Virus record (IMG/VR): IMGVR_UViG_3300028738_000050
Location: 1-34,369 of that record
Length of the DNA stretch: 34,369 nucleotides
Reading direction: 5' to 3' (one strand)
Source: a virus
A program made the position numbers and the translations under genes. Shown here piece after piece: positions 1 through 34,369 of the stretch. How positions within the stretch are numbered: the stretch's first letter is position 1; every line of letters starts with the position of its first letter. The notes beneath the pieces are model-generated. The model was not told where the DNA came from. It ran no database searches and saw only the letters and a list, made by a program, of their open reading frames with translations.

Positions 1-948
1 TTGTTCCTGAACTGCCTGAACTACCATTTGTTCCAGAAGTTCCTGACGTTCCATTTGTGCCTGAACTACCTGAACTACCATTAGTTCCAGACGTTCCTGA
101 ACTACCATTTGTTCCAGAAGTTCCTGACGTTCCATTTGTTCCTGAACTACCTGAACTACCATTTGTTCCTGAACTACCTGAACTACCATTTGTTCCTGAA
201 CTACCTGAACTACCATTTGTTCCAGAACTGCCATTTGTTCCTGATGTTCCATTTGTTCCAGAACTGCCATTTGTTCCAGACGTTCCATTTGTTCCTGAAC
301 TACCTGAACTACCATTAGTTCCAGACGTTCCATTTGTTCCTGAACTGCCTGAACTACCTGAACTACCATTTGTTCCAGAAGTTCCTGACGTTCCATTTGT
401 TCCTGAACTGCCTGAACTACCATTTGTTCCAGAAGTTCCTGACGTTCCATTTGTGCCTGAACTACCTGAACTACCATTAGTTCCAGACGTTCCTGAACTA
501 CCATTTGTTCCTGAACTACCATTTGTTCCTGAACTACCTGAACTACCATTAGTTCCAGACGTTCCATTTGTTCCTGAACTCCCTGAACTACCATTAGTTC
601 CAGACGTTCCATTTGTTCCTGAACTACCTGAACTACCATTAGTTCCAGACGTTCCATTTGTTCCTGAACTGCCATTTGTTCCAGAAGTTCCTGACGTTCC
701 ATTTGTTCCTGAACTACCATTTGTTCCTGAAGTTCCTGAACTACCATTTGTTCCAGACGTTCCTGAACTACCATTTGTTCCTGAACTACCTGAACTACCA
801 GACGTGCCATTTGTACCAGAACTACCAGACGTGCCATTTGTACCAGAACTACCAGACGTGCCATTTGTACCTGAACTACCATTAGTTCCTGATGATCCAG
901 AAGTGCCAGAACCATTAGTTCCAGAGCTACCTGCTGGTCCAGGCGCAC
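1..948 (-). repeat. Gly-X-Y collagen-like repeat region 2, continues past the left edge
   Basis: At least 315 codons of Gly-X-Y, starting at an APGPAG junction after the insert domain and still in repeat at base 1. Composition is the same as region 1 (Gly, Ser, Thr, Asn), with proline only at the junction. Confidence 0.95.
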
Positions 949-2914
949 CTCCTAAATTTATAGACCAAGGCGTTAATGTTATACCTGTTCCAACATTAGT
1001 ACTTGATGATACTACAAATTGACCATTTACAGTATTATATGACGCAATTGTAGCCGTAAAATAATTACTTATACTATTGGCTATAATTGCTTCTTGCCCT
1101 ATGGTCCAAGATAAATTTGTACCACCTGTTAAATAAATTATAGATGGATGTGATGTTGGTACATTTAATATTGTATTTGATGTTGTTTGATATTTATCTG
1201 ATACACCAGCAACACCTGAAGTTCCAGCTGTTCCTGAACTACCAGAAGTACCATTTGTACCAGACGTACCTGAACTGCCTGAACTACCATTAGTTCCAGA
1301 AGTACCATTTGTTCCTGAACTACCAGAGGTTCCATTAGTTCCATGAATGCCTGAACTACCTGAAGTACCATTTGTACCAGAACTACCATTTGTACCAGAA
1401 CTACCATTTGTACCAGAACTACCATTTGTACCAGAACTACCATTTGTACCAGAACTACCATTTGTACCAGAACTACCAGAAGTACCTGAACTACCATTAG
1501 TTCCAGAAGTACCATTTGTTCCTGAACTACCAGAGGTTCCATTAGTTCCATGAATGCCTGAACTACCTGAAGTACCATTTATACCAGAACTACCATTTGT
1601 ACCAGAACTACCAGAACTACCATTTGTACCAGAACTACCATTTGTACCAGAACTACCAGAAGTACCTGAACTACCATTAGTTCCAGATGTACCTGAACTA
1701 CCATTAGTTCCAGAAGTACCATTAGTTCCAGAAGTACCATTTGTACCTGAACTACCAGAAGTACCATTTGTACCTGAACTACCAGAAGTACCATTTGTAC
1801 CTGAACTACCAGAAGTACCATTTGTACCTGAACTACCATTAGTTCCAGAAGTACCATTTGTTCCAGAACTACCAGAAGTACCATTAGTTCCAGACGTACC
1901 TGAACTACCTGAAGTTCCATTAGTTCCATTAGTTCCATTAGTACCTGAACTACCAGAAGTTCCATTAGTACCTGAACTACCAGAGGTTCCATTAGTACCT
2001 GAACTACCTGATGCTCCATTAGTACCTGATGTTCCATTAGTACCTGAACTACCAGAAGTTCCATTAGTACCTGAACTACCAGAAGTTCCATTAGTTCCTG
2101 AACTACCAGAGGTTCCATTTGTACCTGATGATCCTGCGGTGCCATCAGAACCAGAATATCCTATTGTTGATAATAATCTAAATTCAGTGCCAGTATATGA
2201 TAAAAATGCACTTGAATTAGCATGAATATCACCTACTACTAAATTTACATAAGTATTAGATACAGTATTAAATTTCTTTATACTCTTAGCACCTAGATTA
2301 TTTATATTTAATGTTACACCAGTTGTAGTATTTCCAGATAAAAAATTAACTATGTAAAGTAAATTAGATGAATATGCATTTAAACTATTTGTTATAATAT
2401 ATGTATCACCTGATGTTGCGGTTAAAAAAATATCAGAAACTGATTTAGCACCAACATACTTATAAAATGAAATTTTTGGTGGCATATTTGAAGGAACAGT
2501 ACCATAAAATGAAAGCACACCAGCTTCGGTATCTAATAACCAATCACCTTGTCCAAAAACAATATTTGTATTAGTTGAATCCTTTATAGAATAATTATAA
2601 GAAACACCATCACCAAAATTAAAAGGTATGACATCTTTTAATGTGCCACCAGAATCATAAAACGCATTTGTTGTACCAACAACAGCATTAAGAGTTAATC
2701 CAGTAACATATTGAACAACACCTGAAGTACCATAAGATGAAAGAATTGGAGCAGTATTAGGAATAGAATTATAATCCAGCCATATACTTGTAGTTGGTAC
2801 ATAATTATATGTATTAATAGTTTCTTCAAAAAACGTTCTACCTGAATATGTTTCAGTTTTACCAAGTGACTTTTTGAATAATTTGCTAGCTAATTGTGCT
2901 GTTGTTAGTGCCAT
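1..2914 (-). CDS. collagen-like tail fibre protein, C-terminus cut by window edge
   Basis: The frame opens at ATG 2914 ([13 protein letters not shown]) and stays open to base 1, giving about 971 residues with the C-terminus missing. Residues 1-250 form a globular N-terminal part that includes the stretch [14 protein letters not shown] near residue 125, a pattern I associate with phage tail proteins. Residues about 253-569 are Gly-X-Y repeats ([10 protein letters not shown] type), almost free of proline. Residues about 570-658 are an insert domain ([11 protein letters not shown], then [15 protein letters not shown]) ending in a junction with APGPAG. This resembles the small beta domain often placed between collagen stretches in phage fibres. 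A second Gly-X-Y stretch then runs off the edge. The gene follows the 611-aa gene by 14 bp in the same operon and has no clear Shine-Dalgarno. Likely a trimeric virion fibre or adhesin; receptor unknown. Confidence 0.85.
1278..1580. repeat. 96-bp exact direct duplication (1278-1373 and 1485-1580)
   Basis: Bases 1278-1373 recur exactly at 1485-1580, an offset of 207 bp (69 codons), so the reading frame is kept. Both copies include the rare Gly-Ile-His triplet, and they diverge at 1277/1484 and 1374/1581. This is a recent in-frame duplication inside the collagen-like region. Confidence 0.9.
1367..1474. repeat. six perfect 18-bp tandem repeats
   Basis: The unit ACCATTTGTACCAGAACT occurs six times without a mismatch. 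On the minus strand each copy codes for Ser-Ser-Gly-Thr-Asn-Gly. Perfect identity among copies points to recent slippage or unequal recombination. Confidence 0.95.
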
Positions 2915-2928
2915 TTCTTATAATTATT

Positions 2929-4764
2929 TTATACCACAGTAATTGATGTTAATGTATCATTTGAACCAGATGCCATTCCTAATCTAACATATAATGTTCC
3001 ACTATAATTTCCTGCGCCAAAGGTTACATATTTAAGCAATGTTGTTGTTGTAGATGTACTACTTGCAGTTACCATTGCATAATCTCCATCATTAATTGGT
3101 GTTCCTACACCTGGATATGGATTATTAGCATCTAGCCAACCAGTACCACCTTCTACTTTTATAAAAATTTTCATGCTATCTGTAACTTGAGTTCCTGCAA
3201 CAGTTGACATATTTGCACCATTAACTGTAACAGTTATTGATGATTTAGTAGTTATAGTATATGAAAACATTACCCATCTATAATCAATATTTGAATCACT
3301 ACTATAGTTTGGTCCTGCAATTGGAAAATTATTTGTATAATTACCTGTTATTCTTCTATATACACCATTTAACATTTGTAATTCATATAAATAATCACCT
3401 GATATTAATGTTAAGCCTGAAACAAATAATCCACCATATGTTACTGGAAAATTACCTGCTATTCCACCTGATAATTTCCTTGTTGATTCATTTGAAACTG
3501 TATCAACTCTCATTGTTTTACCTGCTTGGGATGTTGCAATTAACATATTTGAATATGTTGTCACTGTACCTTTAGCATTAGTTGCTGTTACAGTCACTGG
3601 AATATCTTCTACATATTTTGATGTTTGTATCACAGGATTTATCACACCACTAATTGTTGTACCACTAAGTTGCGCACCTGATAATGTATTTGAAACAGTT
3701 GATGCATAAGATGATGTTGCTTGAACTGGGTTTGGTCTATAAATTTGAGAAACTAAACCTGTAAATCTATAATTTACTGCTAATAAATCATTTGTACTAA
3801 ATGTTGGCACACCTGATATCCATCTTATAACATATGTTTGGGCACTTAAATTTAAAGTCAATCCTGAAGGTGTAATTGGGTTATCATAATATATTGTTAA
3901 TAAATTAGTTGTTTCTAATTCTGTTGAGCCGGACCATGATATTTTTGATGTATGAGCACCATAACTTCTACCATTAAATACATTATTTACACTAGCAACA
4001 ATTGCAGGCCAAAAATTTGATTTACCAACAACTCCACCCCAATAATCATATTCTATTGCAGTCAAAATTCCATTAGTTGTTGTACCAGTATTTATATTGC
4101 CATTAGGATAATTAATAGAGCCAACAGATACATTATCTATAAATCCAGTTAAATTTGCACCAATATATTTATTAAAACCACCACCAGTTGATACAATTGT
4201 CATATCACTTAATTGTACATTTGTAGTAGTTAAATCACTAACCAATAAATATGATACCGCAGCGCCATCTGACGCTTTATTCATAGTTGCATTAGGATAT
4301 GTTGAACTTAATAATATAGTCTTTGTTGATAATTCTGGTGGTTTAGCTGGAGCCAATTTTTTAATAATATCACTAATATCATCAACAGCATTAGCTATTG
4401 GGGTTGAAGATGTCCAAGTATCAAAAAAACCGTCTGTATATATACCAGCATCTGTTGGTGCACCTATAACACCAACTGAACTTGTCCAAGTACCACCACT
4501 CCAAATTAAAAAATCATTTTGAACAGGTGAATCATTGAAATAATATGTATTACCGGAAAAATCTACAAAAACAAATCTTGTTAAGCCTGTAAGGCTTGTT
4601 ATACCTGTTATTTGTAATGTATTTGTAATTAAATAATCAAGATTTAATCCTGATCTATATTTCACTAAACCATCTACATCCTGTACTAATACATGATTTT
4701 CTGTTATACCAGATTGAACATCTTTAATAACCAAGCCCTTTCGAGCTACAAATTCTGATCCCAT
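2929..4764 (-). CDS. tail fibre-like virion structural protein
   Basis: This 611-aa protein starts MGSEFVARKGLVIKD. The N-terminal region contains a stretch around residues 128-146 (DDISDIIKKLAPAKPPELS) that I associate with conserved phage tail/fibre proteins. The rest is rich in Thr, Ser, Asn and Gly with alternating hydrophobic residues, as in beta-structured fibre or adhesin domains. It has no collagen repeats, signal peptide or membrane segment. The gene lies between the two collagen-like fibre genes, 62 bp after the upstream one and 14 bp before the next, in the same direction, so it is probably co-transcribed. A specific role (receptor binding, fibre joint or adhesin tip) cannot be assigned from the sequence. 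Confidence 0.75.
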   Translation of the reverse strand: MGSEFVARKGLVIKDVQSGITENHVLVQDVDGLVKYRSGLNLDYLITNTLQITGITSLTGLTRFVFVDFSGNTYYFNDSPVQNDFLIWSGGTWTSSVGVIGAPTDAGIYTDGFFDTWTSSTPIANAVDDISDIIKKLAPAKPPELSTKTILLSSTYPNATMNKASDGAAVSYLLVSDLTTTNVQLSDMTIVSTGGGFNKYIGANLTGFIDNVSVGSINYPNGNINTGTTTNGILTAIEYDYWGGVVGKSNFWPAIVASVNNVFNGRSYGAHTSKISWSGSTELETTNLLTIYYDNPITPSGLTLNLSAQTYVIRWISGVPTFSTNDLLAVNYRFTGLVSQIYRPNPVQATSSYASTVSNTLSGAQLSGTTISGVINPVIQTSKYVEDIPVTVTATNAKGTVTTYSNMLIATSQAGKTMRVDTVSNESTRKLSGGIAGNFPVTYGGLFVSGLTLISGDYLYELQMLNGVYRRITGNYTNNFPIAGPNYSSDSNIDYRWVMFSYTITTKSSITVTVNGANMSTVAGTQVTDSMKIFIKVEGGTGWLDANNPYPGVGTPINDGDYAMVTASSTSTTTTLLKYVTFGAGNYSGTLYVRLGMASGSNDTLTSITVV

Positions 4765-4777
4765 TTAATATTTAATT

Positions 4778-4803
4778 CTTTTTTCACTTTCCAAAAGAAA
4801 AAG
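4778..4803 (-). terminator. weak AT-rich hairpin between fibre genes
   Basis: On the minus strand CTTTTTC and GAAAAAAG flank a short loop containing TTTTGGAAAG, in the 62-bp gap after the 2424-aa gene. The stem is A/T-rich with one bulge, so it may be a weak attenuator or have no function. Confidence 0.25.
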
Positions 4804-4826
4804 TATTTGATGTATATATTAATTTT

Positions 4827-7800
4827 TTAAATGATTTTTATAGAAGATTTAACATCCCAAGTACCTGAAATTATAGTTACTAATAACCTTATATTAGAAC
4901 CTGATATATCAACATATAATATAATATTACTTGTTGATCCATTCAAATCTTGTGTAGAATAATCAGTATAAATTACATTTGTACCATCCCAAATTGCAAT
5001 TATTGTTCCTGCTCTCATAGTTATACCACTCATAACATAATAATCAACATAAGCTGCTCTTCCTACTGTTTTTAATAATGAAGAAATTGTAGTCGTTCCA
5101 GAAGTTAATCCAGTAACAACATCAGTATTATTATATAAAATACCATTAATTATTACATCACCAAGCACTAATGTATTATCACTATATGTTAAGCCACTAC
5201 TTGTGTTATATCCATATGTTGTAGTGCTATCACGATATAATATCTCTCCATTATTTCCAATTCCTGGTAATAATCCAGAACTACCTGAGCTACCATTAGT
5301 TCCTGACGTACCATTTGTGCCGTTAGTTCCTGACGTACCATCTGCACCAGAACTACCTGATGTTCCTGACGTACCATTTGTTCCAGAACTACCAGATATA
5401 CCGTTAGTTCCTGAGGTTCCAGATGTACCTGAGGTTCCAGTACTTCCTGATGTGCCTGACGTACCATTTGTTCCAGAACTACCTGAACTTCCTGACGTAC
5501 CATCTGATCCAGAACTACCAGACGTGCCGTTAGTTCCTGACGTACCTGAAGTTCCAGAACTACCTGAACTACCATTAGTTCCTGATGTTCCATTTGTACC
5601 GTTAGTACCAGATGTGCCATTAGTGCCATTAGTGCCAGATGTTCCATTTGTACCGTTAGTACCAGATGTACCATCTGTGCCATTAGTGCCAGAACTACCT
5701 GATGTTCCTGACGTACCATTTGTTCCAGAACTTCCAGAAGTTCCATTAGTGCCTGAGGTTCCATTAGTGCCTGAGGTTCCATTTGTTCCAGAGCTACCTG
5801 AAGTACCAGAAAATCCACTTGTACCTGAACTTCCACTTGTGCCTGAACTTCCACTTGTGCCTGAACTTCCTGAGCTTCCGTTAGTACCTGAACTTCCATT
5901 AGTACCTGAACTTCCTGAACTTCCTGAGCTTCCGTTAGTACCTGAACTTCCATTAGTACCTGAACTTCCTGAACTACCAGAACTTCCATTAGTACCAGAA
6001 CTTCCTGAACTACCACTATTTCCACTTATACCTGAAGTTCCAGATGTTCCATTAGTACCACTTGTTCCGTTCGTACCTGAACTTCCATTAGTACCACTTG
6101 TTCCATTTGTACCTGAACTTCCATTAGTACCACTTGTTCCATTTGTACCTGAACTACCTGATGTTCCATTAGTTGCACTTGTACCTGAACTACCTGATGT
6201 TCCATTAGTTGCACTTGTACCTGAACTACCGCTAGTTCCAGAACTTCCTGAACTCCCATTAGTTCCAGAAGTTCCATTAGTTGCACTTGTACCTGAGGTT
6301 CCTGATGTTCCATTAGTTGCACTTGTACCTGAGGTTCCTGATGTTCCATTAGTGCCTGATGTTCCATTAGTTCCATTAGTGCCTGATGTTCCATTAGTGC
6401 CTGATGTTCCATTAGTTCCACTTGTACCTGAGGTTCCGGAGCTACCTGATGTTCCATTAGTTGCACTTGTACCTGAACTACCTGAGGTTCCATTAGTACC
6501 TGAACTACCACTAGTTCCAGAACTTCCTGAACTACCATCAGTTCCATTAGTTCCGGATGTACCATCAGTTCCATTAGTTCCGGATGTACCATCAGTTCCA
6601 TTAGTTCCAGATGTTCCATTTGTTCCTGAGCTACCTGATGTTCCATTAGTACCAGAAGTGCCATTTGTACCAGAAGTTCCTGAACTACCATAAAAAATAC
6701 CATCTTTTCCTGATGTTCCTGATGTACCATCTGAACCTACACCTGAGGTTCCTGAACTTCCAAAAAATGTACCATCAACACCTGATGTGCCTGAAATACC
6801 TGAGCTACCTGATGTTCCAGACGTACCCCTTGTACCTGAAGTACCAGAACTTCCATAAAAAATGCCATCAACACCTGATGTACCAGAACTTCCTGATGTT
6901 CCAGTACTTCCTGATGTGCCTGATGTTCCGTGTGTTCCTGAAGTGCCTGAACTACCATTTTTACCAGAGGTTCCATTCGTACCACTTGTTCCATTTATAC
7001 CTGATGTGCCAGAACTACCTGATGTACCAGTACTTCCTGATATGCCTGACGTACCTGATGTTCCAGTACTTCCTGATGTGCCTGAACTACCAAAAAATAT
7101 ACCATCAACACCTGATGTACCTGAACTTCCTGAGGTTCCAGTACTACCTGAAGTTCCTGAGCTACCTGAAGTTCCTGAGCTACCTGAAGTTCCTGATATA
7201 CCTGAACTACCTGATGTACCAGTACTTCCTGATGTGCCATTTCTACCAGATGTACCAGACGTACCACGGGTTCCTGATGTACCTGAACTTCCAGAGGTTC
7301 CATCGGTACCACTTGTGCCAGAAGTGCCAGTGCTTCCAGAAGTTCCTGAAGTTCCATTAGTGCCTGATGTGCCTGTACTACCTGATGTGCCTGATGTACC
7401 TGCACTTCCAGATGTTCCTGTACTTCCAGATGTTCCTGCCGTACCTGATATTCCAGATGTGCCTGAACTTCCATAAAAAATACCATCAACACCAGAAGTT
7501 CCTGCTGAGCCTGAAGTTCCTGTACTTCCAGATATACCAGATGACCCAGATGAACCAAAAAATGTACCATCTTTACCTGAACTACCAGAAGACCCTGATC
7601 TGCCTGAACTACCTGATGTACCTGAACTACCTGATGTGCCTGAACTTCCATAAAAAATACCATCAACACCAGAAGTTCCTGAACTACCAAAAAATGTACC
7701 ATCCATACCTGATGTACCTGATGATCCATAAAAATTACCATCAACGCCTGAACTACCTGATGTACCTGATGATCCATCTGTTCCACCACTAGGTGTTATA

Positions 7801-10800
7801 AAAATTTCACCATCAGGATAAACCTTTACATATCCTGAAGTTATTCCTGTATATTGATTAAAATATATTGTTCCACTATTTTTAACATCTAATAATTTTC
7901 CAGCATCTCCAATAACTTCTAATTTTGAATCAATAGTATGCTCAGATGAACCAATAATAATCTGTTTAGTATCAAATAATCTACCTTGTGCATCAATATA
8001 AAATTGTGGATTATGATCCATATATGATGAATATGTTGCAAATCTATAATTACTATGAGGAACAATAGTTGAAATAATTGGACTTATTTCAAAACTTGAT
8101 AAAGATGATAATCTTAACCAATATAAATTATATCCAGACTCAATTAAATTATATGGTGGATTTGTTTTACTCCAAGACATAAATTCATCTTCAAAACTAA
8201 TCATACCTGAATTAGTTAAATTATTAGTCATATCATAAATTTCATTAATAGAATTTATAACAGTCCAACCAGAATTAGAATCATAATATTCCAACTTTAA
8301 TGTAAATCCAGATGTCTTTGAACTATCATTTAATCCAATAAAAAAACTAGAAAATGTTGTATTAAATCCAATATAAATTTTTGATGTTAAACCAGTTAAT
8401 AATGAAATATTATTTGAGTCATCTGAAGCATCATGTGTAACATCTAAATATGTTATATCATCATATGAAATATTAACCTCTGTAAACAAAGGTGGTGCAA
8501 TAGTAAAAGTTCCTGATTGTAATTGTGGAAATGCAGTAAAATCCCAAATATCAAATAAATTATGTCCAGTAATATTTTCAAAAGAAATATACGCACCATT
8601 CTCAAGATATATATCATCAATACTACAAGGTAAATCAGATGACCAAGATGTAAAATCTATTTCATTTCTACTTTTTCTCCAAGAAAATGTATCAGTTGTT
8701 CCAGTAGTAGATATTTTTATCTCATAAAAAATTTGATAATTCCTTGTATAAACACCAGAAACTATAACATCATCTAATCCAGATCCATTCACTCTATCTA
8801 TATAATGTGTATGATAATCTAAAACATTAGATTGTTTATTTACACCAAATCTACCTCCTTGTGATACGACATAAACATCACGACCTAATTCATAATTATA
8901 TAAATATTTAAAATGTCCACCTTCATTTCTATAAATATAATCTTCCCATTGTGGTGTACCATTATCAGCTATTACAAATCCTTTATCACCATCTGATATT
9001 CCATCAACCATAATATTATTATTCATATCATCGTATTCATCTGGCACATTATCAATACCATATGTATGAACAAGATTTTGTGGATTATCAATATTAACAC
9101 CCAAATAACCAGGAAGAGCAGTTTTATTCATTCTATTATAATCACCCATTATAGTTCTACCAAGAGCATCAACATAAAATGCTGGCAAAGGATCTAACTG
9201 TGATGATCTAACACCAAGTCTTCTAAAACCATGTGATGAAACTAAATATACACTTGGCGCAGAAATTATAGTACTTATTGAAGATAATCTAATCCAATTA
9301 TAAGAAGAATCTGTAATATCAGATAAAATAACTGATGCCCAATCATTCATTAATGATATATCCCAAGAAATTAATCCAGACGTAGTTAAATTTAATGATT
9401 GATCTATATATGAATGATCATTAAAATTTAATTCTGTCCAACCACTTAATGTTGAATATTCGACTTTTAATGTGACACCTGAGCCAAATTGTCGAATAGC
9501 ACAATAAATAGAATTAAATTTTCTTAACTGACCAATATATGCTTGTGAAGTAGAACCAATTTCTAACAAATTAAATTCAGAAGATGATGAAAAAGCAGCA
9601 TTGTATGTTTTATCTTTATAAACAACTATAGGAGCTTCAGAATCTGATGTAATTTTAACTTGAGCAAACATATCTGGTGCAATAGATAATGAAGATCCTG
9701 GCAATTGTGGAAATGCCCAAAATCTCCACATATCATTTATTGAATGACCAGCTAATATTGTAAAGCTAATCGTAATACCATTATCTAGCATATTAACAGT
9801 AGAACTACACATCATATCAACAGAATATGGTGTCCAAGTTGTACCATAATCAATAGATGATCTCCATTGATACCAATTTGGTGTACTACCAGAATCTGTT
9901 ATTTTTATTTCATAATATCTAATTATTCTTTTATCGTAAGAACCTCCCACAACTAAACTATCATAGCCAATATCATCGATATTATTAAGATATAATGCGT
10001 GTGAATTCATACTATTTGATGACCAGTTTATACCAAACCTACCTCCTTCAGATTCCACTAAAATATCTCTTTCAGATGCATAACTATATGTATATTTAAA
10101 TTCACCACTCTCATTTCTATATAAATACTCTTCAAATTTATTAATATTATTATCAGCATACATTATACCTTTATCCCCATCAGGTATACCATCAATCATC
10201 AAATGATTATGTTCAGTGTCACTTTCATCAGGCATATTATCCAAGCCATAAATATGAACCATATCTAAAGGTTGAACAGTATTAACGCCAAGATATCCAA
10301 CATTAGTATATGGGCTTTCAGTTAATAAATGATTATAATCTCCCAATATAACTCTACCAGAACCATCTACATAAAACGAAGGATTTGCATCCATATACGC
10401 ACTATAAACAGCTAATCTAGCTGTACCACCTAATGATAATGAATCTATAACTGGGGCAATTGATGGAATTGTAGTAGTAGTAATTCTAATCCAATATAAA
10501 TTGTATTCAGATTCTCTACCGTATAATTTATATAATATCCAATCTAAATCTTGTCTATCCCATTCTATTTTACCGTCGTCAGTTAAATTATTAGTAAAAT
10601 CGCTAAATGAGCCGCCACTACTTACAATTAAAATTTCTGTCCAGCCAGAAGGTGAAAAATATTCAGCTTTTAATGTAACACCAATTGCATTTTGTCCATT
10701 ATTAAAATAAATTGAGTTATATGGTAATTCCCAACCAACATATATAGCGTCTGTCAATCCTGATAAACAAGTTTCAAATCCACTATATGTAGTTGATAAA

Positions 10801-12101
10801 CCATTTGTTATATCGTTATATGTTATTCCTGTACCAGCATTAAAATCTGTAGTTGTTAATATTTCAGTAAATCCATTAGCAGCAATAGTAAATGTACCTT
10901 GTGGTAATTGTGGAAAAGCTATAAATTGCCATCTATCATATAATGTATGTCCATTATTATTTTCAAATGTAACGGTAATAGAATACTCAATATCAATAAT
11001 ACCATTTATTGGTATATCATTAGACCAATCACTCCATGTTTGTCCATTATCTCTTGATTTTTTCCAATGGATTTCATCTATTCCAGAAGTTACTGAAATT
11101 CTAACTTCATAAAGTGCTTGATATAATCTATCATACCATCCACCAACAATCATATCATTTAATGCACCATCAAAACCACCAAGATATTGACTATGATAAT
11201 TCATTACATTAGATTGTTTATTAATACCAACTCTACCTGATCTTGAATATACCTGATTTAAATCTCCAGTTAATAAATTAGTAACATAATAATAATCACC
11301 ACCTTCATCTCTATAAGTTTGAAGAGCCCATTTTTTTAAACCATCATCACCAAATACAACACTTTTATCAGATGATAGTGATCCATCTAAAAAAATAGCA
11401 GAATCTGGGCTAATATCTGTTTCATTAAGATAAGAACCTTCATTTTCACCATAAATATGAATTCTTGTCTGACCTGATAATATATTACCAATTTTTAAAT
11501 AATTTCTATTATGATCAAATGTAAATCCACTATCGGTATTATATCCATAAGTAGTTCCTGTTTCTCTAAACAATATATCATATTGATTACCAATAATAGG
11601 TATTCCACCACCAAAAGTAGCGCCTGTTACATACCAAGTTTGTGTTGATGCTGAATATACTAAAATATATTTATCCTGAATGTCAGTAATATTCACATCT
11701 GATAATGTGCTTAAAGTTCCACTTATAACTAATTCCTTCCAATCTGAATCTGTTGTTAAAGTTCTATCTTCACGATCATAATCAGGTAAAGGATTTACAC
11801 TTGGGTTATTTATTAATTGCCAAAATTTCTGATCGTCTAAAGTATAAACAACCATGCCTAACTTTCTCTTATCAAATGTTACATAATTTCTATAATTAGG
11901 AATAGGCACATCAATATCAGATATACTTGGAAATGGTGTAGAGCCAGAAATTGTATCACAAATTCTAAACCCACCTTGAAGATAATAATCTTCCAGCATA
12001 GCATATATTTGTCTAGGATCTTGATTACTATAATCAGGAACTATTCTTGAATCTAATTCGTGTCCGTATTCTACTGGGTTATAAAATTTTTGACCACTCA
12101 T
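4827..12101 (-). CDS. giant collagen-like tail fibre with three tandem globular modules
   Basis: This 2424-aa protein has four visible parts. Residues 1-210 are an N-terminal attachment-type region. Residues about 213-1370 contain three related modules of about 365-400 residues. Each module opens with H-[IT]-YG and has a [GS]GR[FV]G[IV]N motif, an AFPQL motif and a closing FY[VI]D..GR. Modules 1 and 2 each carry a canonical Asp-box (SRDNGQTW; SIDYGTTW), which is degenerate in module 3. Residues about 1436-2276 are Gly-X-Y repeats, with D-G-x-F-[FY]-G-S-S inserts concentrated in their N-terminal part. The last 150 residues form a tip with YVDYYVMSG, RAGTIIAIWDGTNV and SGTWDVK, a pattern I associate with phage tail-protein C-termini. 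The protein probably forms a long trimeric fibre. It is the largest gene here, in the operon from 13,599. Confidence 0.85.
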   Translation of the reverse strand: MSGQKFYNPVEYGHELDSRIVPDYSNQDPRQIYAMLEDYYLQGGFRICDTISGSTPFPSISDIDVPIPNYRNYVTFDKRKLGMVVYTLDDQKFWQLINNPSVNPLPDYDREDRTLTTDSDWKELVISGTLSTLSDVNITDIQDKYILVYSASTQTWYVTGATFGGGIPIIGNQYDILFRETGTTYGYNTDSGFTFDHNRNYLKIGNILSGQTRIHIYGENEGSYLNETDISPDSAIFLDGSLSSDKSVVFGDDGLKKWALQTYRDEGGDYYYVTNLLTGDLNQVYSRSGRVGINKQSNVMNYHSQYLGGFDGALNDMIVGGWYDRLYQALYEVRISVTSGIDEIHWKKSRDNGQTWSDWSNDIPINGIIDIEYSITVTFENNNGHTLYDRWQFIAFPQLPQGTFTIAANGFTEILTTTDFNAGTGITYNDITNGLSTTYSGFETCLSGLTDAIYVGWELPYNSIYFNNGQNAIGVTLKAEYFSPSGWTEILIVSSGGSFSDFTNNLTDDGKIEWDRQDLDWILYKLYGRESEYNLYWIRITTTTIPSIAPVIDSLSLGGTARLAVYSAYMDANPSFYVDGSGRVILGDYNHLLTESPYTNVGYLGVNTVQPLDMVHIYGLDNMPDESDTEHNHLMIDGIPDGDKGIMYADNNINKFEEYLYRNESGEFKYTYSYASERDILVESEGGRFGINWSSNSMNSHALYLNNIDDIGYDSLVVGGSYDKRIIRYYEIKITDSGSTPNWYQWRSSIDYGTTWTPYSVDMMCSSTVNMLDNGITISFTILAGHSINDMWRFWAFPQLPGSSLSIAPDMFAQVKITSDSEAPIVVYKDKTYNAAFSSSSEFNLLEIGSTSQAYIGQLRKFNSIYCAIRQFGSGVTLKVEYSTLSGWTELNFNDHSYIDQSLNLTTSGLISWDISLMNDWASVILSDITDSSYNWIRLSSISTIISAPSVYLVSSHGFRRLGVRSSQLDPLPAFYVDALGRTIMGDYNRMNKTALPGYLGVNIDNPQNLVHTYGIDNVPDEYDDMNNNIMVDGISDGDKGFVIADNGTPQWEDYIYRNEGGHFKYLYNYELGRDVYVVSQGGRFGVNKQSNVLDYHTHYIDRVNGSGLDDVIVSGVYTRNYQIFYEIKISTTGTTDTFSWRKSRNEIDFTSWSSDLPCSIDDIYLENGAYISFENITGHNLFDIWDFTAFPQLQSGTFTIAPPLFTEVNISYDDITYLDVTHDASDDSNNISLLTGLTSKIYIGFNTTFSSFFIGLNDSSKTSGFTLKLEYYDSNSGWTVINSINEIYDMTNNLTNSGMISFEDEFMSWSKTNPPYNLIESGYNLYWLRLSSLSSFEISPIISTIVPHSNYRFATYSSYMDHNPQFYIDAQGRLFDTKQIIIGSSEHTIDSKLEVIGDAGKLLDVKNSGTIYFNQYTGITSGYVKVYPDGEIFITPSGGTDGSSGTSGSSGVDGNFYGSSGTSGMDGTFFGSSGTSGVDGIFYGSSGTSGSSGTSGSSGRSGSSGSSGKDGTFFGSSGSSGISGSTGTSGSAGTSGVDGIFYGSSGTSGISGTAGTSGSTGTSGSAGTSGTSGSTGTSGTNGTSGTSGSTGTSGTSGTDGTSGSSGTSGTRGTSGTSGRNGTSGSTGTSGSSGISGTSGSSGTSGSSGTSGSTGTSGSSGTSGVDGIFFGSSGTSGSTGTSGTSGISGSTGTSGSSGTSGINGTSGTNGTSGKNGSSGTSGTHGTSGTSGSTGTSGSSGTSGVDGIFYGSSGTSGTRGTSGTSGSSGISGTSGVDGTFFGSSGTSGVGSDGTSGTSGKDGIFYGSSGTSGTNGTSGTNGTSGSSGTNGTSGTNGTDGTSGTNGTDGTSGTNGTDGSSGSSGTSGSSGTNGTSGSSGTSATNGTSGSSGTSGTSGTNGTSGTNGTSGTNGTNGTSGTNGTSGTSGTSATNGTSGTSGTSATNGTSGTNGSSGSSGTSGSSGTSATNGTSGSSGTSATNGTSGSSGTNGTSGTNGSSGTNGTSGTNGSSGTNGTSGTNGTSGTSGISGNSGSSGSSGTNGSSGSSGSSGTNGSSGTNGSSGSSGSSGTNGSSGTNGSSGSSGTSGSSGTSGSSGTSGFSGTSGSSGTNGTSGTNGTSGTNGTSGSSGTNGTSGTSGSSGTNGTDGTSGTNGTNGTSGTNGTNGTSGTNGTNGTSGTNGSSGSSGTSGTSGTNGTSGSSGSDGTSGSSGSSGTNGTSGTSGSTGTSGTSGTSGTNGISGSSGTNGTSGTSGSSGADGTSGTNGTNGTSGTNGSSGSSGLLPGIGNNGEILYRDSTTTYGYNTSSGLTYSDNTLVLGDVIINGILYNNTDVVTGLTSGTTTISSLLKTVGRAAYVDYYVMSGITMRAGTIIAIWDGTNVIYTDYSTQDLNGSTSNIILYVDISGSNIRLLVTIISGTWDVKSSIKII
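5274..7795 (-). repeat. Gly-X-Y collagen-like repeat region of the giant fibre
   Basis: About 840 codons of Gly-X-Y. The N-terminal third is interrupted by the module D-G-x-F-[FY]-G-S-S (VDGNFYGSS, MDGTFFGSS, VDGIFYGSS). The rest is nearly pure GTSG, GSSG and GTNG. There is almost no proline and very few charged residues. Confidence 0.95.
7985..11465 (-). repeat. three tandem globular modules of about 365-400 aa
   Basis: Module starts lie near 11,465 (RIHIYGENEG), 10,265 (HIYGLDNMPDE) and 9,080 (HTYGIDNVPDE); module 3 ends near 7,985. Shared landmarks include DGDKG in modules 2 and 3, RNE.G.FKY, N.LT..G.I.[WF] and YN..W[IL]R. The copies have diverged at protein level and are not nucleotide repeats, so the triplication is old. 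Confidence 0.85.
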
Positions 12102-12657: not shown

Positions 12658-13599
12658 TTAACTATCTGTATAACCTGTATATAAACCATTAGCAAAATGT
12701 AAAGTTCTAGTGCCTGTTCCACTATCTCTATCAACAGGAACATCTTCTGTCATGCCAATTACAGTAGTTATATATAATTTACCAGTAGTATCAGTAACAA
12801 TATAATTTGTTAATCCTGAAGATGTTAATCCTGTTAATGTTAATCCTGACGCAACAAGCAACGGTACATATAAAGATGTATTACCAGTTAAATAATAAAA
12901 TTCATTATGTATAGTAGCTCCTGTCCATGCGCCATTTATGCCAGATGTGCCAGATGAGCCTGACAATCCATCCTTTCCAGATGTTCCTGATGAGCCAAAG
13001 CCACCAGTACCCCCAGAAAATGTATAAGGTACATTATGCCAGAATCCATCAAAGTACATAAGAGTATCACCTGAAGTTAAACCTGAAAGTATAACATCAT
13101 CCAAATCTACAACACCAAATCCACCATATGTAGTACCACTATCATATTCAGAATCAATAGTTGCGTGTAATACATCTAAAGTAACATCATAATCTAAAGG
13201 ATTACTTAAATATATTTGTGGAATTTTTACATCAACAGAGCCAGTCATTATTAATAATCTACCTAATGATTTTACAACAGGATCATTATCAAAATAATAT
13301 GAAATATTATATTTTTCTTGTTCATACTGATAATATGGATCGTTTACACTATCATAAGTAACTTTTATCATTAAAAACGTAACTGCTTTACCTATAAATC
13401 CATAACTTAATGGTTGATCAGTATCACCAGCTTTTAAAATTACACGGGCTCTATATTGAGATTCGTATGGAATTTCTAAATCCTCTAAACTCAGCTTATC
13501 TAAAACATTAGGTCCTTCAACTGCGATAAAAGAACAATTCCAATTCTTTATTGTTTTTTCTGTAGGATTAAGAAGATCATTAGGAACAATCTTTGTCAT
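12658..13599 (-). CDS. tail fibre attachment-type structural protein with short collagen-like segment
   Basis: This 313-aa protein is first in the leftward adhesin operon. Residues 1-150 form a globular domain with PLSYGFIGKAVTFLMIKVTY and IPQIYLSNPLDYDV, patterns I associate with virion proteins of large Bacteroidota-type phages. A short Gly-X-Y segment ([20 protein letters not shown], near residues 198-220) follows, then a C-terminal beta-type region. Its position, size and short collagen stretch fit an adaptor or small fibre that joins the larger collagen-like fibres encoded next. The start ATG lies 17 bp from a TATATATAA element in the divergent promoter region. The exact role is not known. 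Confidence 0.7.
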   Translation of the reverse strand: MTKIVPNDLLNPTEKTIKNWNCSFIAVEGPNVLDKLSLEDLEIPYESQYRARVILKAGDTDQPLSYGFIGKAVTFLMIKVTYDSVNDPYYQYEQEKYNISYYFDNDPVVKSLGRLLIMTGSVDVKIPQIYLSNPLDYDVTLDVLHATIDSEYDSGTTYGGFGVVDLDDVILSGLTSGDTLMYFDGFWHNVPYTFSGGTGGFGSSGTSGKDGLSGSSGTSGINGAWTGATIHNEFYYLTGNTSLYVPLLVASGLTLTGLTSSGLTNYIVTDTTGKLYITTVIGMTEDVPVDRDSGTGTRTLHFANGLYTGYTDS

Positions 13600-18399: not shown

Positions 18400-18707
18400 A
18401 TATTATATTTATATAATTCTTGTTTTACTTTATATTCTTCTATTTCTTTTTTTGTTAATAATCTTATAATATTACTTTCACGAATAATAAGGCAACCATT
18501 CATATTAGAAAAATGTACGTCATAATATTGTACTTCACAATCACCATAACGTATTTCATATATTAATACAAATGATTCAATTTTAAAATTTCCGTTATCA
18601 TCTATTATATCATATTCCTTATTTACTAAATTCAAATCTAATAAAACATAATCTCCTATATTATATTTATATTTTAATTTGAATTTATTATATTTTTTTA
18701 TCTTCAT
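18396..18707 (-). CDS. tagged small protein 5, SH3-like, MKIKKYNKF leader and KYNI end
   Basis: A 103-residue protein with leader MKIKKYNKFK, then YNIGDYVLLDL and a beta-rich body (FVLIYEIRYGDCEVQYYDV), like the small barrel of tagged protein 1. A Lys/Glu-rich helix and the C-terminus YKYNI follow. Its first 20 bases overlap the 3' end of the receiver-domain gene in another frame, so leader and receiver C-terminus are encoded together. The leader's A-rich segment is nearly identical at nucleotide level to that of the next gene. An AAGGAG tract lies about 20 nt upstream of the ATG, too far for a normal ribosome site. Function unknown. Confidence 0.7.
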   Translation of the reverse strand: MKIKKYNKFKLKYKYNIGDYVLLDLNLVNKEYDIIDDNGNFKIESFVLIYEIRYGDCEVQYYDVHFSNMNGCLIIRESNIIRLLTKKEIEEYKVKQELYKYNI

Positions 18708-19062
18708 AATATTTTATACAACGATTTATCTCCTTTTGTAGTTTATTTGGGACAATTGGTTTTTGGACATAAAATAAAATTCCCATTTCTTTAATCTTTT
18801 TAACAATTTGATTTCCGCCAGCGGTTACAATTATAATAGGTATATTAAAATTCTCTTGAATATATTCAATAGTTTCATAGCCATCCATTTGTGGCATAAA
18901 TATATCTAATAATATAATATCTGGCAAATCTTGTCTAATACAAGTGATAGCATCAATTCCATTTATTGCAACTTGAGTATAATATCCTAATTTTTGGGCT
19001 ATTGATTGTTGAATTATTGAACTATCAGAATCATCATCAACTATAAGTATTTTATTGTTCAT
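18688..19062 (-). CDS. stand-alone response-regulator receiver domain (CheY-like)
   Basis: A 124-residue protein that is one complete receiver domain. Acidic pocket residues D9 and D10 (ILIVDDD), phosphoacceptor D53 (LLDIFMPQMDG), switch T80 (IIVTAG) and K101 (VQKP) are all present. No output domain follows, as in CheY, Spo0F or CpdR-type proteins, which act by protein-protein contact. No histidine kinase is visible here, so a host kinase would be the likely phosphodonor (inference). Upstream lies a TATATATAA element; downstream the gene overlaps tagged protein 5 by 20 bp. Intact active-site residues suggest function. A receiver domain in a phage structural region is unusual and probably host-derived. 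Confidence 0.9.
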   Translation of the reverse strand: MNNKILIVDDDSDSSIIQQSIAQKLGYYTQVAINGIDAITCIRQDLPDIILLDIFMPQMDGYETIEYIQENFNIPIIIVTAGGNQIVKKIKEMGILFYVQKPIVPNKLQKEINRCIKYYEDKKI

Positions 19063-31297: not shown

Positions 31298-31837
31298 TTA
31301 ATAATAGTTATTATCTTCTATTACTTTACTTTTTTTCTTTAATGCCACAATTCCTTGACCATCTGTTAATTGCTCAATAACATTATAATATTTTAAAGTC
31401 ATTTGATAATCTTCTCTATTAAAATCATGTATCATTACAATAACATTTTCATCTATCATATCATATATTGCTTTAGCACAATATTTTCTTGCTCTTCCAT
31501 CTATTAACACTTTAGTAAATTTCAAATTATTATTTTTTGGAAATTCAATATAATTCTTAAATTGTTCATATCTACATGGAATTGGATCTGGTGTATGTGC
31601 TGCAATATAATTCAATTCAATATTTTCTATATTGTAATTATCAACAGCAATTTGAATATTATTAATCCAATCTTTATCATGCTCAATAGATATTACTTTT
31701 TTTACTAATCCAGAAAAATATAAGGTAGAATTACCTGAACCCCATTCTAAAAAAATATCATCTTTATTCAAATATTTTTCAATAAACTCATATTCATATT
31801 TGTGCATTAGTGGTGTAAAAAAACTTAATTTATTCAT
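31298..31837 (-). CDS. class I SAM-dependent methyltransferase-like protein
   Basis: A 179-residue protein with a Rossmann-type methyltransferase pattern. Motif I is FLEWGSGNST (29-38), the acidic end of strand 2 is IEHD (51-54), and later elements are VLIDGRARKYCA (110-121) and IVMIHDFNR (133-141). The motifs resemble methyltransferases acting on sugars or glycan-linked groups more than DNA methyltransferases, and no DPPY or PC motif is present. It is last in the leftward sugar-modification block, 23 bp after the sulfotransferase, with its own TTTATAAAAATAAAAATAAA leader before the ATG. A role in capping or modifying a glycan fits the context. The substrate is unknown. Confidence 0.6.
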   Translation of the reverse strand: MNKLSFFTPLMHKYEYEFIEKYLNKDDIFLEWGSGNSTLYFSGLVKKVISIEHDKDWINNIQIAVDNYNIENIELNYIAAHTPDPIPCRYEQFKNYIEFPKNNNLKFTKVLIDGRARKYCAKAIYDMIDENVIVMIHDFNREDYQMTLKYYNVIEQLTDGQGIVALKKKSKVIEDNNYY

Positions 31838-31860: not shown

Positions 31861-32568
31861 TTAAACCAATAAATTTATTTTATCTATCAAATCCTGAGAC
31901 ATCCAATTCTTATATTCTCCAACCACGCCTTTACCAGGATTAAAATTTGGTAAATTTTTATCATTAACATTAGGTATTACATCCCCAATTTTTTTACCAA
32001 TATAATTTTCAATTATCAATTTTTGATTATTAAAATCTAATAATATATCTTCATAATTCAACACAAGCATATTATCCTTATATTTCATCCATCCATCAAT
32101 ATGTAATTTCCACCTATTTACATAATTTTCAGGCTCAATTATAACATGAGGATCTGGTGAATATGGCAGCAAAAAATCTCTACCAATATCATCAGGTTTA
32201 CTAAAAATCCAATCTTCAAATTTTGGAAATCTATCTAAATCTTTAGGAAATGGTATAAACTTATAATAACTAACCAAAACATCTTTAACATCTCTTTTTA
32301 AATAAATAACTTTATACTTCTCAAATAAAAAATCTAAATAAGACAAAACAAATTCAACTTGATGATGTGATTTACAAACTATATTTTCAATATACGAATT
32401 AACAACAATATCTTTATATGTATAATGTTTATAGTTTTCTAAAGTATATGGTATAGACTGTGGAATAAAACCAATAGTATGAAATTCTCCATTCTTATCA
32501 TAATTTATTAAATTTATTAGCAAGTGAGTACCTGACCGTTCGTGAGTTATTACTATTATTGGCTTCAT
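31861..32568 (-). CDS. PAPS-dependent sulfotransferase
   Basis: A 235-residue protein with the full sulfotransferase signature. The 5'-phosphosulfate loop is THERSGTHLL (8-17), KSHH (66-69) supplies the usual central histidine position, and the 3'-phosphate site is YLKRDVKDVLVSYYKF (89-104, with R92 and S100). LVLNYEDI (168-175) follows, then the C-terminal GKGVVGEYKNW (212-222), which matches the G-x-x-G-x-W-K-type loop. It would transfer sulfate from PAPS to a hydroxyl, probably on a sugar given the neighbouring glycosyltransferases, in the host cytoplasm. Its start overlaps the glycosyltransferase stop (ATGA). No PAPS synthesis gene is visible, so the host would supply PAPS. Confidence 0.85.
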   Translation of the reverse strand: MKPIIVITHERSGTHLLINLINYDKNGEFHTIGFIPQSIPYTLENYKHYTYKDIVVNSYIENIVCKSHHQVEFVLSYLDFLFEKYKVIYLKRDVKDVLVSYYKFIPFPKDLDRFPKFEDWIFSKPDDIGRDFLLPYSPDPHVIIEPENYVNRWKLHIDGWMKYKDNMLVLNYEDILLDFNNQKLIIENYIGKKIGDVIPNVNDKNLPNFNPGKGVVGEYKNWMSQDLIDKINLLV

Positions 32569-33212
32569 TTATATTTTAAAATTATTTCCTTACATTTTTT
32601 AATAAATTGATATGCATTTATTTTATCTTGAGTTGCAATATCAAAAAATCGTATTTCAAATTGATGATATAGCCAATCATCATATGTTGTACCATTACCA
32701 TACCGTTTATTTAAACATTTCCATTTTTTATTTAATGACGAAGTTATTTCAAATAATTTTACATTCACGCCATATTTTGGAGCAACCCAACTAAATTCAC
32801 CACCACAATCATATTCGTCTCTCAATTTGAAAGATGGACTATTCAATTTTTCATAAACTTTTTTTGTTATTCCAAAACAAGCTGGAGCAGCATAAACAAA
32901 ATTAGGAGTTCTAGTTTGATTTACCTGTTCAACACCTATAATAGAATTATCATCTGAAATTTGATCAACTATATATTCATATAATTTAGGTTTTAATGGA
33001 ATGCAATCAATATCAAAAAATATTAAGATATCAAAATCTAAACTTTTTATTTTTTGATCCATCCAATCATGATGAAATGATAAATCTGTAAATTCTTGGT
33101 TCAATTCCATATTAAATGTATCAAAAACTTGCTTTTGACATTCAACAACTCTTTCAGGAATATTATTCATATAACAAGAAAAAACCTGTACATTTCTACC
33201 ATTAATTTCCAT
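32565..33212 (-). CDS. glycosyltransferase-like protein with DxD motif
   Basis: A 215-residue protein. The central segment FDILIFFDIDCIPL places a DID (67-69) at the end of a hydrophobic strand, as in GT-A fold glycosyltransferases that bind a divalent metal and nucleotide-sugar. Later elements are PACFGITKKVYEKL (110-123) and a basic Trp/Tyr-rich region (KKWKCLNKRYGNGTTYDDWL) that could form the acceptor side. It overlaps the GT2 gene by 11 bp and the sulfotransferase by 4 bp, so it is translationally coupled. The CAZy family cannot be fixed by eye. Donor and acceptor unknown. Confidence 0.65.
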   Translation of the reverse strand: MEINGRNVQVFSCYMNNIPERVVECQKQVFDTFNMELNQEFTDLSFHHDWMDQKIKSLDFDILIFFDIDCIPLKPKLYEYIVDQISDDNSIIGVEQVNQTRTPNFVYAAPACFGITKKVYEKLNSPSFKLRDEYDCGGEFSWVAPKYGVNVKLFEITSSLNKKWKCLNKRYGNGTTYDDWLYHQFEIRFFDIATQDKINAYQFIKKCKEIILKYK

Positions 33213-34074
33213 AAACTATCAAATAATCAACGCCTTTTTTAGTGATAAATATTTTTTCTCCATCATCAAAAATTTCCATTTTATCTGGAATAATATTCCA
33301 TTCTTTTAATTTTTTAACTAAAAATAATTCATTTTTTCTTCTATCAGAATTTGTCCATTGACGATTTCCTGATTTATGATCAAAATAAAGATGATAAATT
33401 TTAACTTGTGGTATAACAATTAAATCATAACCTTTTCTAAATATATTATAAGTAAATACTGTTTCTTCTCTATGAGATGATGGCGACATTTCTAAAGGAT
33501 AATCATCAGCAACAATTCTATTAAAAAAATAATTAGAATATAAATGCTCTACTTTTTTTATATCTTTTGATTGTTCGTGAACCATTTGAATATTAAATTC
33601 TGAATAAATGTTTTCTATTTTAGAATAATATCCATTTTCTTCCTTCGGCCTTTTATCAGGATTATCTTTATAAAATGAATATAAATATTTATCTATAATA
33701 ATACCTGACATTGCACCAATATTAGGCTTAATATTTTTAACTAATATTTCTAATGTATTACTAGATAAAATATTATCATCATCTGTTTTAAAAACCCAAC
33801 CATCTTCTATATTTTCTAGTCCTATCTGAAGAGCTGGTACAGCTCCTTTACATTGACCATAAAAATAATCAAATTCAATATTTTTTTCTTTGAATAAAAC
33901 TAAAATATTTTTTAATATTTGAAAATCATAAAATTTTTTTTGTTTACTATCATCAATCAAAACTACTCTATATGGAGAGTAGGTTTGACTGAAAATTGAC
34001 ATTAAACAAAGTGGTAAAGTTGTTTCGTATCTATCACAAGTTGTCAACAGAATAGTAACTTTATTCTTCTTCAT
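33202..34074 (-). CDS. family 2 glycosyltransferase
   Basis: A 290-residue protein with the GT2 pattern. The N-terminal strand VTILLTTCDRYETTLPLCL, then VVLIDDS (37-43), the DxD-type motif FKTDDDN (95-101) and an acceptor-side HREETVF (201-207) follow the order of GT-A family 2 enzymes. No membrane segment is seen, so it is soluble. It adds a sugar from a nucleotide donor to a glycan or protein. It overlaps both neighbours (14 bp upstream, 11 bp downstream), so the block is translated as a unit. Linkage and substrate cannot be deduced. Confidence 0.85.
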   Translation of the reverse strand: MKKNKVTILLTTCDRYETTLPLCLMSIFSQTYSPYRVVLIDDSKQKKFYDFQILKNILVLFKEKNIEFDYFYGQCKGAVPALQIGLENIEDGWVFKTDDDNILSSNTLEILVKNIKPNIGAMSGIIIDKYLYSFYKDNPDKRPKEENGYYSKIENIYSEFNIQMVHEQSKDIKKVEHLYSNYFFNRIVADDYPLEMSPSSHREETVFTYNIFRKGYDLIVIPQVKIYHLYFDHKSGNRQWTNSDRRKNELFLVKKLKEWNIIPDKMEIFDDGEKIFITKKGVDYLIVYGN

Positions 34075-34369
34075 ATATTCTAAGAACTTCTTTTACAACA
34101 TCTTCTGGTTCAGGTAAATAATCATATAATGTTTTACCTTCTGGAATTTTATCAATAGTATCTGTATAAAATTCTGTATGTCTTATTTCAAGATCATCTA
34201 GTAGTAAAGATTTTTGCATTGCTCTTGTTTTATAAGATTGTGTGCCATTTCTAAATGGTAGTATATGCTCAGCATGTTTACAAGTTGGCATAACGACAAT
34301 CCAATTATCAAATGCGCCAGCAATATGTAAAGGTGATGAATCGTTAGTTACAAGCACCTTTGATAATGA
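34061..34369 (-). CDS. GT9-like glycosyltransferase, N-terminal part outside the window
   Basis: The frame is open to the right edge, so only the last 102 residues are visible. An apparent GTG start at 34,357 is just an internal valine codon. The visible part reads VTNDSSPLHIAGAFDN and then HILPFRNGTQSYKT. The first matches the ND-S-P-x-H-x-A motif of heptosyltransferase-type GT9 enzymes, which contacts the nucleotide-sugar. The C-terminus is acidic (EDVVKEVLRIYEEE). It overlaps the GT2 gene by 14 bp and is the first visible gene of the block. Confidence 0.65.
   Translation of the reverse strand, partial: SLSKVLVTNDSSPLHIAGAFDNWIVVMPTCKHAEHILPFRNGTQSYKTRAMQKSLLLDDLEIRHTEFYTDTIDKIPEGKTLYDYLPEPEDVVKEVLRIYEEE

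Follow-up and report, generated by a model that had tools for sequence, protein, structure and literature searches.

Can a collagen-like fibre dispense with proline (Pro), and what might then take its place? The question is raised by IMG/VR record IMGVR_UViG_3300028738_000050, a giant-phage fragment of which the 34,369 nt analysed are referred to here as the window, and in which two proteins, A and C, carry three long tracts of glycine-X-Y (Gly-X-Y) triplets. An initial annotation, made from the letters of the sequence, had described these tracts as Pro-poor, with threonine (Thr) or serine (Ser) at X and Ser or asparagine (Asn) at Y, and had proposed that they are glycosylation scaffolds. Our analysis leaves us about evenly poised on the proposition that the tracts form the shafts of trimeric fibres on the virion and probably carry O-linked sugars on Ser at Y or on Thr; a fibre-shaft role in general is rated clearly higher.

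Composition and ancestry of the tracts

Residue counts bore out the described composition. The two tracts of protein A contain 0 Pro in 321 residues and 0 in at least 302, and that of protein C contains 1 in approximately 838, compared to 60 in the remaining 1934 residues of the two proteins; at the latter rate, the chance of finding no Pro in 623 residues is approximately 3e-9. X is overall Thr or Ser (61 and 40, respectively, in the second tract of A) and Y is Ser or Asn (64 and 36), with 1, 0 and 24 charged residues in the three tracts. The guanine plus cytosine content of 1-kb blocks with tracts (0.39-0.44) lies above that of the remaining window (0.21-0.31), so that the absence of Pro, whose codons are CCN, is no effect of AT bias. 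Both proteins have the Collagen family (PF01391) as their sole Pfam match, with 291.6 bits for A and 309.8 bits for C relative to a family cut-off of 27.2, and in C the uninterrupted runs of at least 8 triplets sum to 237 triplets. The PF01391 model does not demand Pro, and the tracts fall outside the Pro/hydroxyproline content of a collagen helix; they are collagen-like by sequence, which does not imply collagen-type stability. The interval 1-7795 originally given to the repeats does hold the tracts, but it also takes in protein B (2929-4764), which is without Gly-X-Y.

Between repeat units within tracts, synonymous divergence (pS) was 0.45-0.69 and nonsynonymous divergence (pN) was 0.22-0.35, with pN 0.00 at Gly; synonymous sites thus diverge more than amino acids while Gly is invariant, indicative of selection on the protein-level pattern. 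Ser codons in the window depend on position (X-Ser mainly AGT, Y-Ser mainly TCN), whereas a 735-kb relative draws its Y-Ser from both codon groups. A grammar conserved despite synonymous divergence and differing Ser codons argues for selection on the protein, and the tracts are old repeat DNA held to that grammar, with no fresh slippage. Coupling of Asn to a preceding Thr is absolute in the window (116 Gly-Thr-Asn triplets and 0 Gly-Ser-Asn) and reversed in one other lineage; it was rejected as a functional signal and read as repeat descent.

The 735-kb relative is the uncultured phage LR756501, given in PMC7162821 as the largest of a huge-phage set, and it is the top match of the window helicase (57%), of the N-terminal part of C (61% over 1266 aa, aligned to LR756501 114573-118385) and of a 1061-aa protein (40%). 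More distant kin include other huge-phage records, Sphingomonas phage PAU, Tenacibaculum phages and Prevotella Lak phages, and from these phage relatives we infer a host among Bacteroidota. LR756501 encodes Pro-free proteins whose lengths are 2816, 1664 and 3487 aa and whose triplets number 779, 280 and 833, with Ser and nearly no Asn at Y, and additionally carries Pro-rich GPT/GPQ tracts, so that a single genome keeps both kinds apart. If triple-helical, the tracts of its 2816- and 3487-aa proteins (102894-111344 and 399879-410342) would measure approximately 0.7 micrometre, exceeding most virions.

The tip of C is 52% identical to the tip of another LR756501 collagen than the one matched by its N-terminal part, and best matches in two separate proteins indicate modular swapping; a protein search with the N-terminal part of C in IMG/VR gave no match. 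The anchor of A was found in 16 IMG/VR loci, 3 of them near-identical and with Gly-X-Y, the remainder ending there or bearing other parts. In PTm1 its homologue lies between a weakly B-like protein and a neck protein, and in LR756504 a B homologue stands just before it, the same arrangement as in the window. The structure model of the anchor (mean predicted local distance difference test score, pLDDT, 64.5) had no PDB match below E 0.09, that of the C tip best matched phage tailspikes and T4 gp9 (E 3.6e-4 to 8.4e-4, with low template-modelling scores), and PHROG matches of A and C are to tail and fibre families, but are located within the repeats. Taken together, these comparisons point to A and C as modular fibre proteins, presumably located on the virion.

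Glycosyltransferases beside Pro-free collagens

The glycosyltransferase block near the window end can be placed with the help of a contig, L503, which is 99.97% identical to the window across 11,165 bases and extends past its end. On one strand, L503 encodes in order collagens of 628 and 1188 aa, an RCC1-repeat protein, the GT8/GT9, GT2 and DxD proteins, the sulfotransferase and the methyltransferase-like protein. Both collagens are Pro-free and lie upstream of the sugar block; the larger has Ser at 90 and Asn at 30 Y positions, 0 Pro and a Peptidase_S74 end. In this contig, therefore, a collagen that is poor in Pro and has Ser at Y is followed downstream, on the same strand, by the GT2. The glycosyltransferase-collagen link in this phage is real, and the earlier proposal that the block belongs with the repeats holds, given these collagens directly upstream and the GT2 relatives found downstream of Gly-X-Ser collagens. 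Between the collagens and the sugar cassette, the RCC1-repeat protein is a beta-propeller (L503 6023-8314; PF25390, 4.4e-153), a second copy of which (L502 474-2249) looks like a variant at an equivalent site.

The sole named-phage match of the window GT2 is P19250A_0025 (29.6% identical) of Methylophilaceae phage P19250A, which is preceded by a collagen (P19250A_0023) and a methyltransferase and followed by a GT9-like gene. P19250A_0023 (KX815270.1; L402 3756-7361) is annotated as a tail length tape-measure protein but is actually a collagen of Gly-X-Ser type, its runs spanning 138 and 127 triplets and Ser occupying Y in 225 of approximately 280 triplets. An IMG/VR search with an alignment of the two GT2s, in which a collagen was not a criterion, found 275 relatives, of which 80 were kept and 79 were distinct. 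Gly-X-Y tracts are held by 58 of these 79 loci (51 Gly-[Tyr/Phe/Ile/Ala]-Ser, 4 with Thr at X and 3 with at least 5% Pro). Tracts accompany 26 of 38 representatives, in every case on the GT2 strand and in 25 upstream of GT2, usually with one gene between; the median distance is 1.3 kb, the median fraction of Ser at Y is 0.77 (minimum 0.62) and median Pro is 0.4%. When the loci are reduced to lineages, a collagen accompanies 4 of the 7 defined at 60% identity and 4 of the 6 defined at 50%, so that the independent evidence comes from four lineages, not fifty-eight loci. Ser at Y without Pro, and neither Asn nor Thr at X, is common to all GT2-linked collagens. The genome collection, searched with different patterns so that absence elsewhere is weak evidence, held one GT2 relative, on a 39-kb contig of an archaeal bin and directly downstream of a 212-triplet Gly-X-Ser collagen.

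At the level of sequence, Pro-free phage collagens are a class, not an oddity. IMG/VR was scanned with a Pro-free Thr/Ser pattern, a Pro pattern and, because the first pattern favours some Ser codons, an X/Y-swapped control pattern, with at least 120 stretches for each; all counts from these scans are among the matches listed and give no prevalence estimate. In the union of both Pro-free sets, Thr stood at X in 118 of 210 stretches, at both positions in 53 and at Y in 24, with 15 others. The commonest form is long, with Thr at X and Ser or Asn at Y, and in the first set 61 of 78 such stretches are without any Pro. Of 120 Pro-free-pattern stretches, 98 had more Thr at X than at Y, and 96 of 120 Pro-pattern stretches had more at Y than at X, the Pro-class tracts having Pro at X and Thr at Y.

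Neighbours of Thr-at-X tracts (150 proteins) included GT9, GT1, GT60, FkbM methyltransferase and a sulfotransferase, and those of Pro tracts (150 proteins) included 2-oxoglutarate (2OG) oxygenases. For comparison by record, the Thr-at-X set was brought to 45 by removing 5 near-duplicates, and the Pro set from 50 to 30 by dropping 20, chiefly the shortest, although a few of those dropped equalled retained ones in length. GT60 was present in 7 of 45 versus 0 of 30 (Fisher p 0.037), GT9 in 23 versus 7 (p 0.018) and 2OG oxygenases in 3 versus 10 (p 0.004), all uncorrected. GT2 matches numbered 86 in 4.87 Mb of Thr-at-X records and 16 in 2.63 Mb of Pro-class records, with related records kept, in a sample of 50 of 103 Thr-at-X loci (all with at least 40 triplets) and of 50 Pro loci, two of which were shorter and 48 of which came from the 63 that reach this length. 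A tracking of GT2 density by the Asn fraction (Spearman 0.28, p 0.051) was not relied on. Among the matches listed, 12 of 61 distinct GT60 loci have a tract, with Thr at X in 12 of 12, and at two loci 48 and 92 bases separate GT60 from the collagen gene; six aligned GT60s are 72-83% identical, so that the GT60 association counts as one lineage.

Other features of these neighbourhoods deserve mention. Phage GT60, of a polypeptide N-acetylglucosamine (GlcNAc)-transferase family, is common in IMG/VR (575 of 600 stretches among the matches listed), and on the same footing a stretch of at least 30% Thr outside Gly-X-Y was found near GT60 in 58 of 70 loci versus 3 of 70 controls, the neighbours including Thr-rich, mucin-like proteins of TPTNTPT type (e.g., L470 and L442). 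The 2OG-Fe(II) oxygenases beside Pro-rich phage collagens are possible prolyl hydroxylases. A sulfotransferase (L417 10423-11238; PF13469, 3.7e-16) located 55 bases from a Thr-at-X collagen gene echoes that of the window block.

Table 1. Coordinates of the collagen-like proteins, protein B and the glycosyltransferase block in the window
Feature	Position	Strand	Remarks
Protein A	2..2914	-	at least 971 aa, C-terminus beyond window; anchor, two Pro-free Gly-X-Y shafts, small linker domain
Anchor domain of A, residues 1-251	2162..2914	-	homologues in PTm1, LR756504 and 16 IMG/VR loci
First Gly-X-Y tract of A, residues 252-572	1199..2161	-	107 triplets, 321 aa, 0 Pro, 36 N-X-S/T
Linker domain of A, residues 573-669, separating both tracts	908..1198	-	
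Second Gly-X-Y tract of A, residues 670-971	2..907	-	101 triplets to window edge, at least 302 aa, 0 Pro, 36 N-X-S/T
Protein B, 611 aa	2929..4764	-	without Gly-X-Y
Protein C, 2424 aa	4827..12101	-	long N-terminal part, broken Gly-X-Y shaft, C-terminal tip
N-terminal part of C, ~residues 1-1441	7779..12101	-	homology to LR756501
Gly-X-Y region of C, ~residues 1442-2280, ~838 aa	5265..7778	-	1 Pro, 52 N-X-S/T, several breaks
C-terminal tip of C	4827..5264	-	all-beta model, pLDDT 81
Methyltransferase-like protein	31298..31837	-	weak, no Pfam match above cut-off
Sulfotransferase	31861..32568	-	PF00685, 1e-12
215-aa protein, DxD-like stretch, possible glycosyltransferase	32565..33212	-	no Pfam match
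GT2 glycosyltransferase	33202..34074	-	PF00535, 2.4e-9
GT8 + GT9 protein, C-terminal end	34061..34369	-	complete in L503 8413-10014, 533 aa

By eye in translation, the N-terminal part of C (7779-12101) resembles approximately three copies of a 390-residue module. Elsewhere in the window, a 313-aa protein (12658-13599) has a short weak collagen-like match at 12931-13008 (E 6e-4, below cut-off), and a lone response-regulator receiver domain lies at 18688-19062 (PF00072, 1.8e-21).

Proposed glycosylated fibre shafts and the alternatives

In the mechanism that we propose, the N-terminal part would fix A or C to the particle, the Gly-X-Y region would form a long, flexible shaft and a tip rich in beta structure would complete the protein. 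The shaft would probably be a collagen-like winding of three chains; at a helix rise of 0.286 nm per residue it would be approximately 240 nm long in C and approximately 92 and at least 86 nm in A. Having lost its Pro, the shaft would present instead an even, uncharged surface that is rich in hydroxyl groups. These groups, on Ser at Y and on Thr or Ser at X, would probably be O-glycosylated by the GT8/GT9, GT2 and DxD proteins of the phage cassette, with sugars perhaps capped by sulfate or methyl groups; such sugars would stabilise the helix, shield it or display glycans. Ser at Y is common to the GT2-linked collagens, and known glycosylated collagens are stabilised by a sugar on the Y-position hydroxyl; most simply, then, Y-Ser, and also Thr where GT60 is present, would be O-glycosylated. 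This suggests that sugars may take the stabilising role of Pro in Pro-free phage collagens. The analogy with glycosylated Thr drawn in the initial annotation is a misfit by position, as the glycosylated Thr in work on Riftia and Thr-galactose reportedly sits at Y, whereas here Thr is at X. More broadly, and tentatively, phages may build two kinds of collagen shaft, a Pro-rich kind partnered by 2OG oxygenases, maybe acting as prolyl hydroxylases, and a Pro-free kind stabilised by O-glycans through dedicated enzymes, either a GT2/GT8-GT9/methyl/sulfo cassette or mucin-type GT60. The Pro-free kind could then amount to a mucin-like collagen that a virus encodes and that is both made and glycosylated in the cytoplasm of the bacterium.

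A number of points weigh against glycosylated shafts. Virion location, triple helix, glycosylation and acceptor residue are each presumptive, and no modification was observed. Within the window the block lies 19 kb from C, with A and C at least 19 kb away. As many as 64 of the 79 GT2 loci belong to one lineage, the search pair included P19250A, itself adjoining a collagen, and GT2 (PF00535) in general showed no proximity to tracts beyond chance expectation (24 records, combined p 0.97). In the searches made, the GT2, the GT8/GT9 protein and the sulfotransferase of the window each lacked a homologue in LR756501; ten GT2 matches lie elsewhere in its genome, and its shafts, of 700-triplet scale, are Pro-free. 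The presence tests (p 0.004-0.04) carry no correction for relatedness or for the testing of several families, GT60 and GT9 proximity to a tract reaches only p 0.03-0.08, and 49 of the 61 GT60 loci among the matches listed are without Gly-X-Y nearby. GT60 was found in 0 of 5 records, namely the window, which is a fragment, and four huge-phage records including the 735-kb relative.

Several of these points would suit a hydrophilic shaft without modification, in the form of a weak or partially disordered bristle held by a trimeric anchor and tip, with the glycosyltransferases serving the host surface, DNA or fibre tips: the 735-kb relative, without cassette and GT60, has giant shafts of the same kind, GT2 generally lacks proximity to tracts, and EPclA, Pro-rich at X, is by the account in PMC3368898 stable when produced unglycosylated in Escherichia coli. 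We nevertheless consider this unlikely, although to be taken seriously, because related GT2s recur in an operon-like manner downstream of Gly-X-Ser collagens and, in this very phage, collagen genes adjoin the cassette. On the host-guest scale, moreover, helix formation is poor with Asn at Y and with Thr at X. The tracts might also form no triple helix, being instead a disordered entropic brush or adopting another glycine-rich packing, such as the polyglycine-II-like bundle seen in snow-flea antifreeze protein and in phage adhesins. They have no Pro to speak of, that of C has many breaks, and all solved repeat matches are Pro-containing collagens, driven by the Gly period, with no solved Pro-free GTS/GTN repeat among the PDB matches. 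Such structures are improbable for tracts whose strict period-three Gly extends over hundreds of triplets with pN 0.00, as a triple helix requires, and which are flanked by domains typical of trimeric fibres.

Neutral or selfish repeat expansion, doubling as a recombination joint for fibre-domain swapping and leaving composition incidental, would account for domains shuffled on both tract sides and for tract lengths that vary greatly among relatives. We give it very little credence, as synonymous sites are strongly diverged between units while Gly is fixed and X and Y are confined to two residues, and differing phages use different Ser codons at the identical position under one grammar. N-glycosylation at N-G-S/T sites, on which the initial annotation had leaned, is the least credible of all. 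Sites are many (124 N-X-S/T across the three tracts), and over 51 rows Asn stands more often before G-T than before G-S (Mantel-Haenszel odds ratio 3.7, relatedness uncorrected). However, because X is nearly always Thr or Ser, nearly every Y-Asn makes N-G-T/S automatically, and the sequon count adds nothing beyond the Asn count. LR756501 has 8, 4, 2 and 12 sequons in tracts of 779, 267, 121 and 827 triplets, or 1.0-1.7 per 100 triplets versus 34.8 and 19.4 in the window, and the P19250A collagen has 1. Protein A has no preference for N-G-T over N-G-S (37 to 35), and the cytoplasmic N-glycosyltransferase family GT41 was present in 0 of 9 related genomes. The sequons are an unconserved by-product, and a classification of the tracts as an N-glycosylated repeat protein was rejected. 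Neither the extended bacterial sequon D/E-X-N-X-S/T nor the Bacteroidota O-glycosylation motif D-[ST]-[AILMTV] occurs in any of the three tracts. Of the glycosylation scaffolds first proposed, what stands is that the repeats are collagen-like, Pro-free and cassette-linked; the N-X-S/T argument falls, and the modification itself we infer.

Significance and known systems

If the shafts are indeed O-glycosylated, Pro/hydroxyproline would not be the sole evolved route to a stable collagen-like fibre, a Pro-free O-glycan route existing in the bacterial cytoplasm. This would offer a genetically simple source of glycosylated collagen and explain the role of many orphan phage glycosyltransferases, and the adsorption of large phages and their recognition by the immune system may be influenced by virion glycans. 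The folding of Pro-free collagens becomes directly testable because P19250A, a member of the unit, is a cultured phage. In the literature searched, Pro-free phage collagens coupled to glycosyltransferases were not found described.

Among known systems, the GT60 protein TcOGNT1 of Trypanosoma cruzi is presented in PMC9472816 and PMC8724618 as a mucin-type polypeptide alpha-GlcNAc-transferase that places GlcNAc on Thr. Its Thr-rich substrates are matched by the Thr-at-X collagens and TPT-rich proteins near which phage GT60s lie, a parallel case that, as far as seen, is not part of the window phage. For bacterial collagen-like proteins such as BclA, PMC8968730 mentions O-glycan decoration as proposed for prokaryotic collagen; BclA, which is O-glycosylated, has Pro at X and Thr at Y, whereas the window tracts have Thr at X, Ser or Asn at Y and no Pro. 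The side tail fibres EPclA and EPclB of E. coli prophages have high Pro at X, many charges and col domains of approximately 111-322 aa, and the account in PMC3368898 gives glycosylation of the recombinant protein as not observed. Like A and C, these are phage fibres in which a Gly-X-Y shaft joins an anchor to a trimerising part at the C-terminus, but A and C are nearly without Pro and charge and have shafts of up to approximately 840 aa. Closest in organisation is phage P19250A, which like this phage has a related GT2 after a Pro-poor Gly-X-Ser collagen, with Tyr, Ile, Phe or Ala at X where the window has Thr or Ser.

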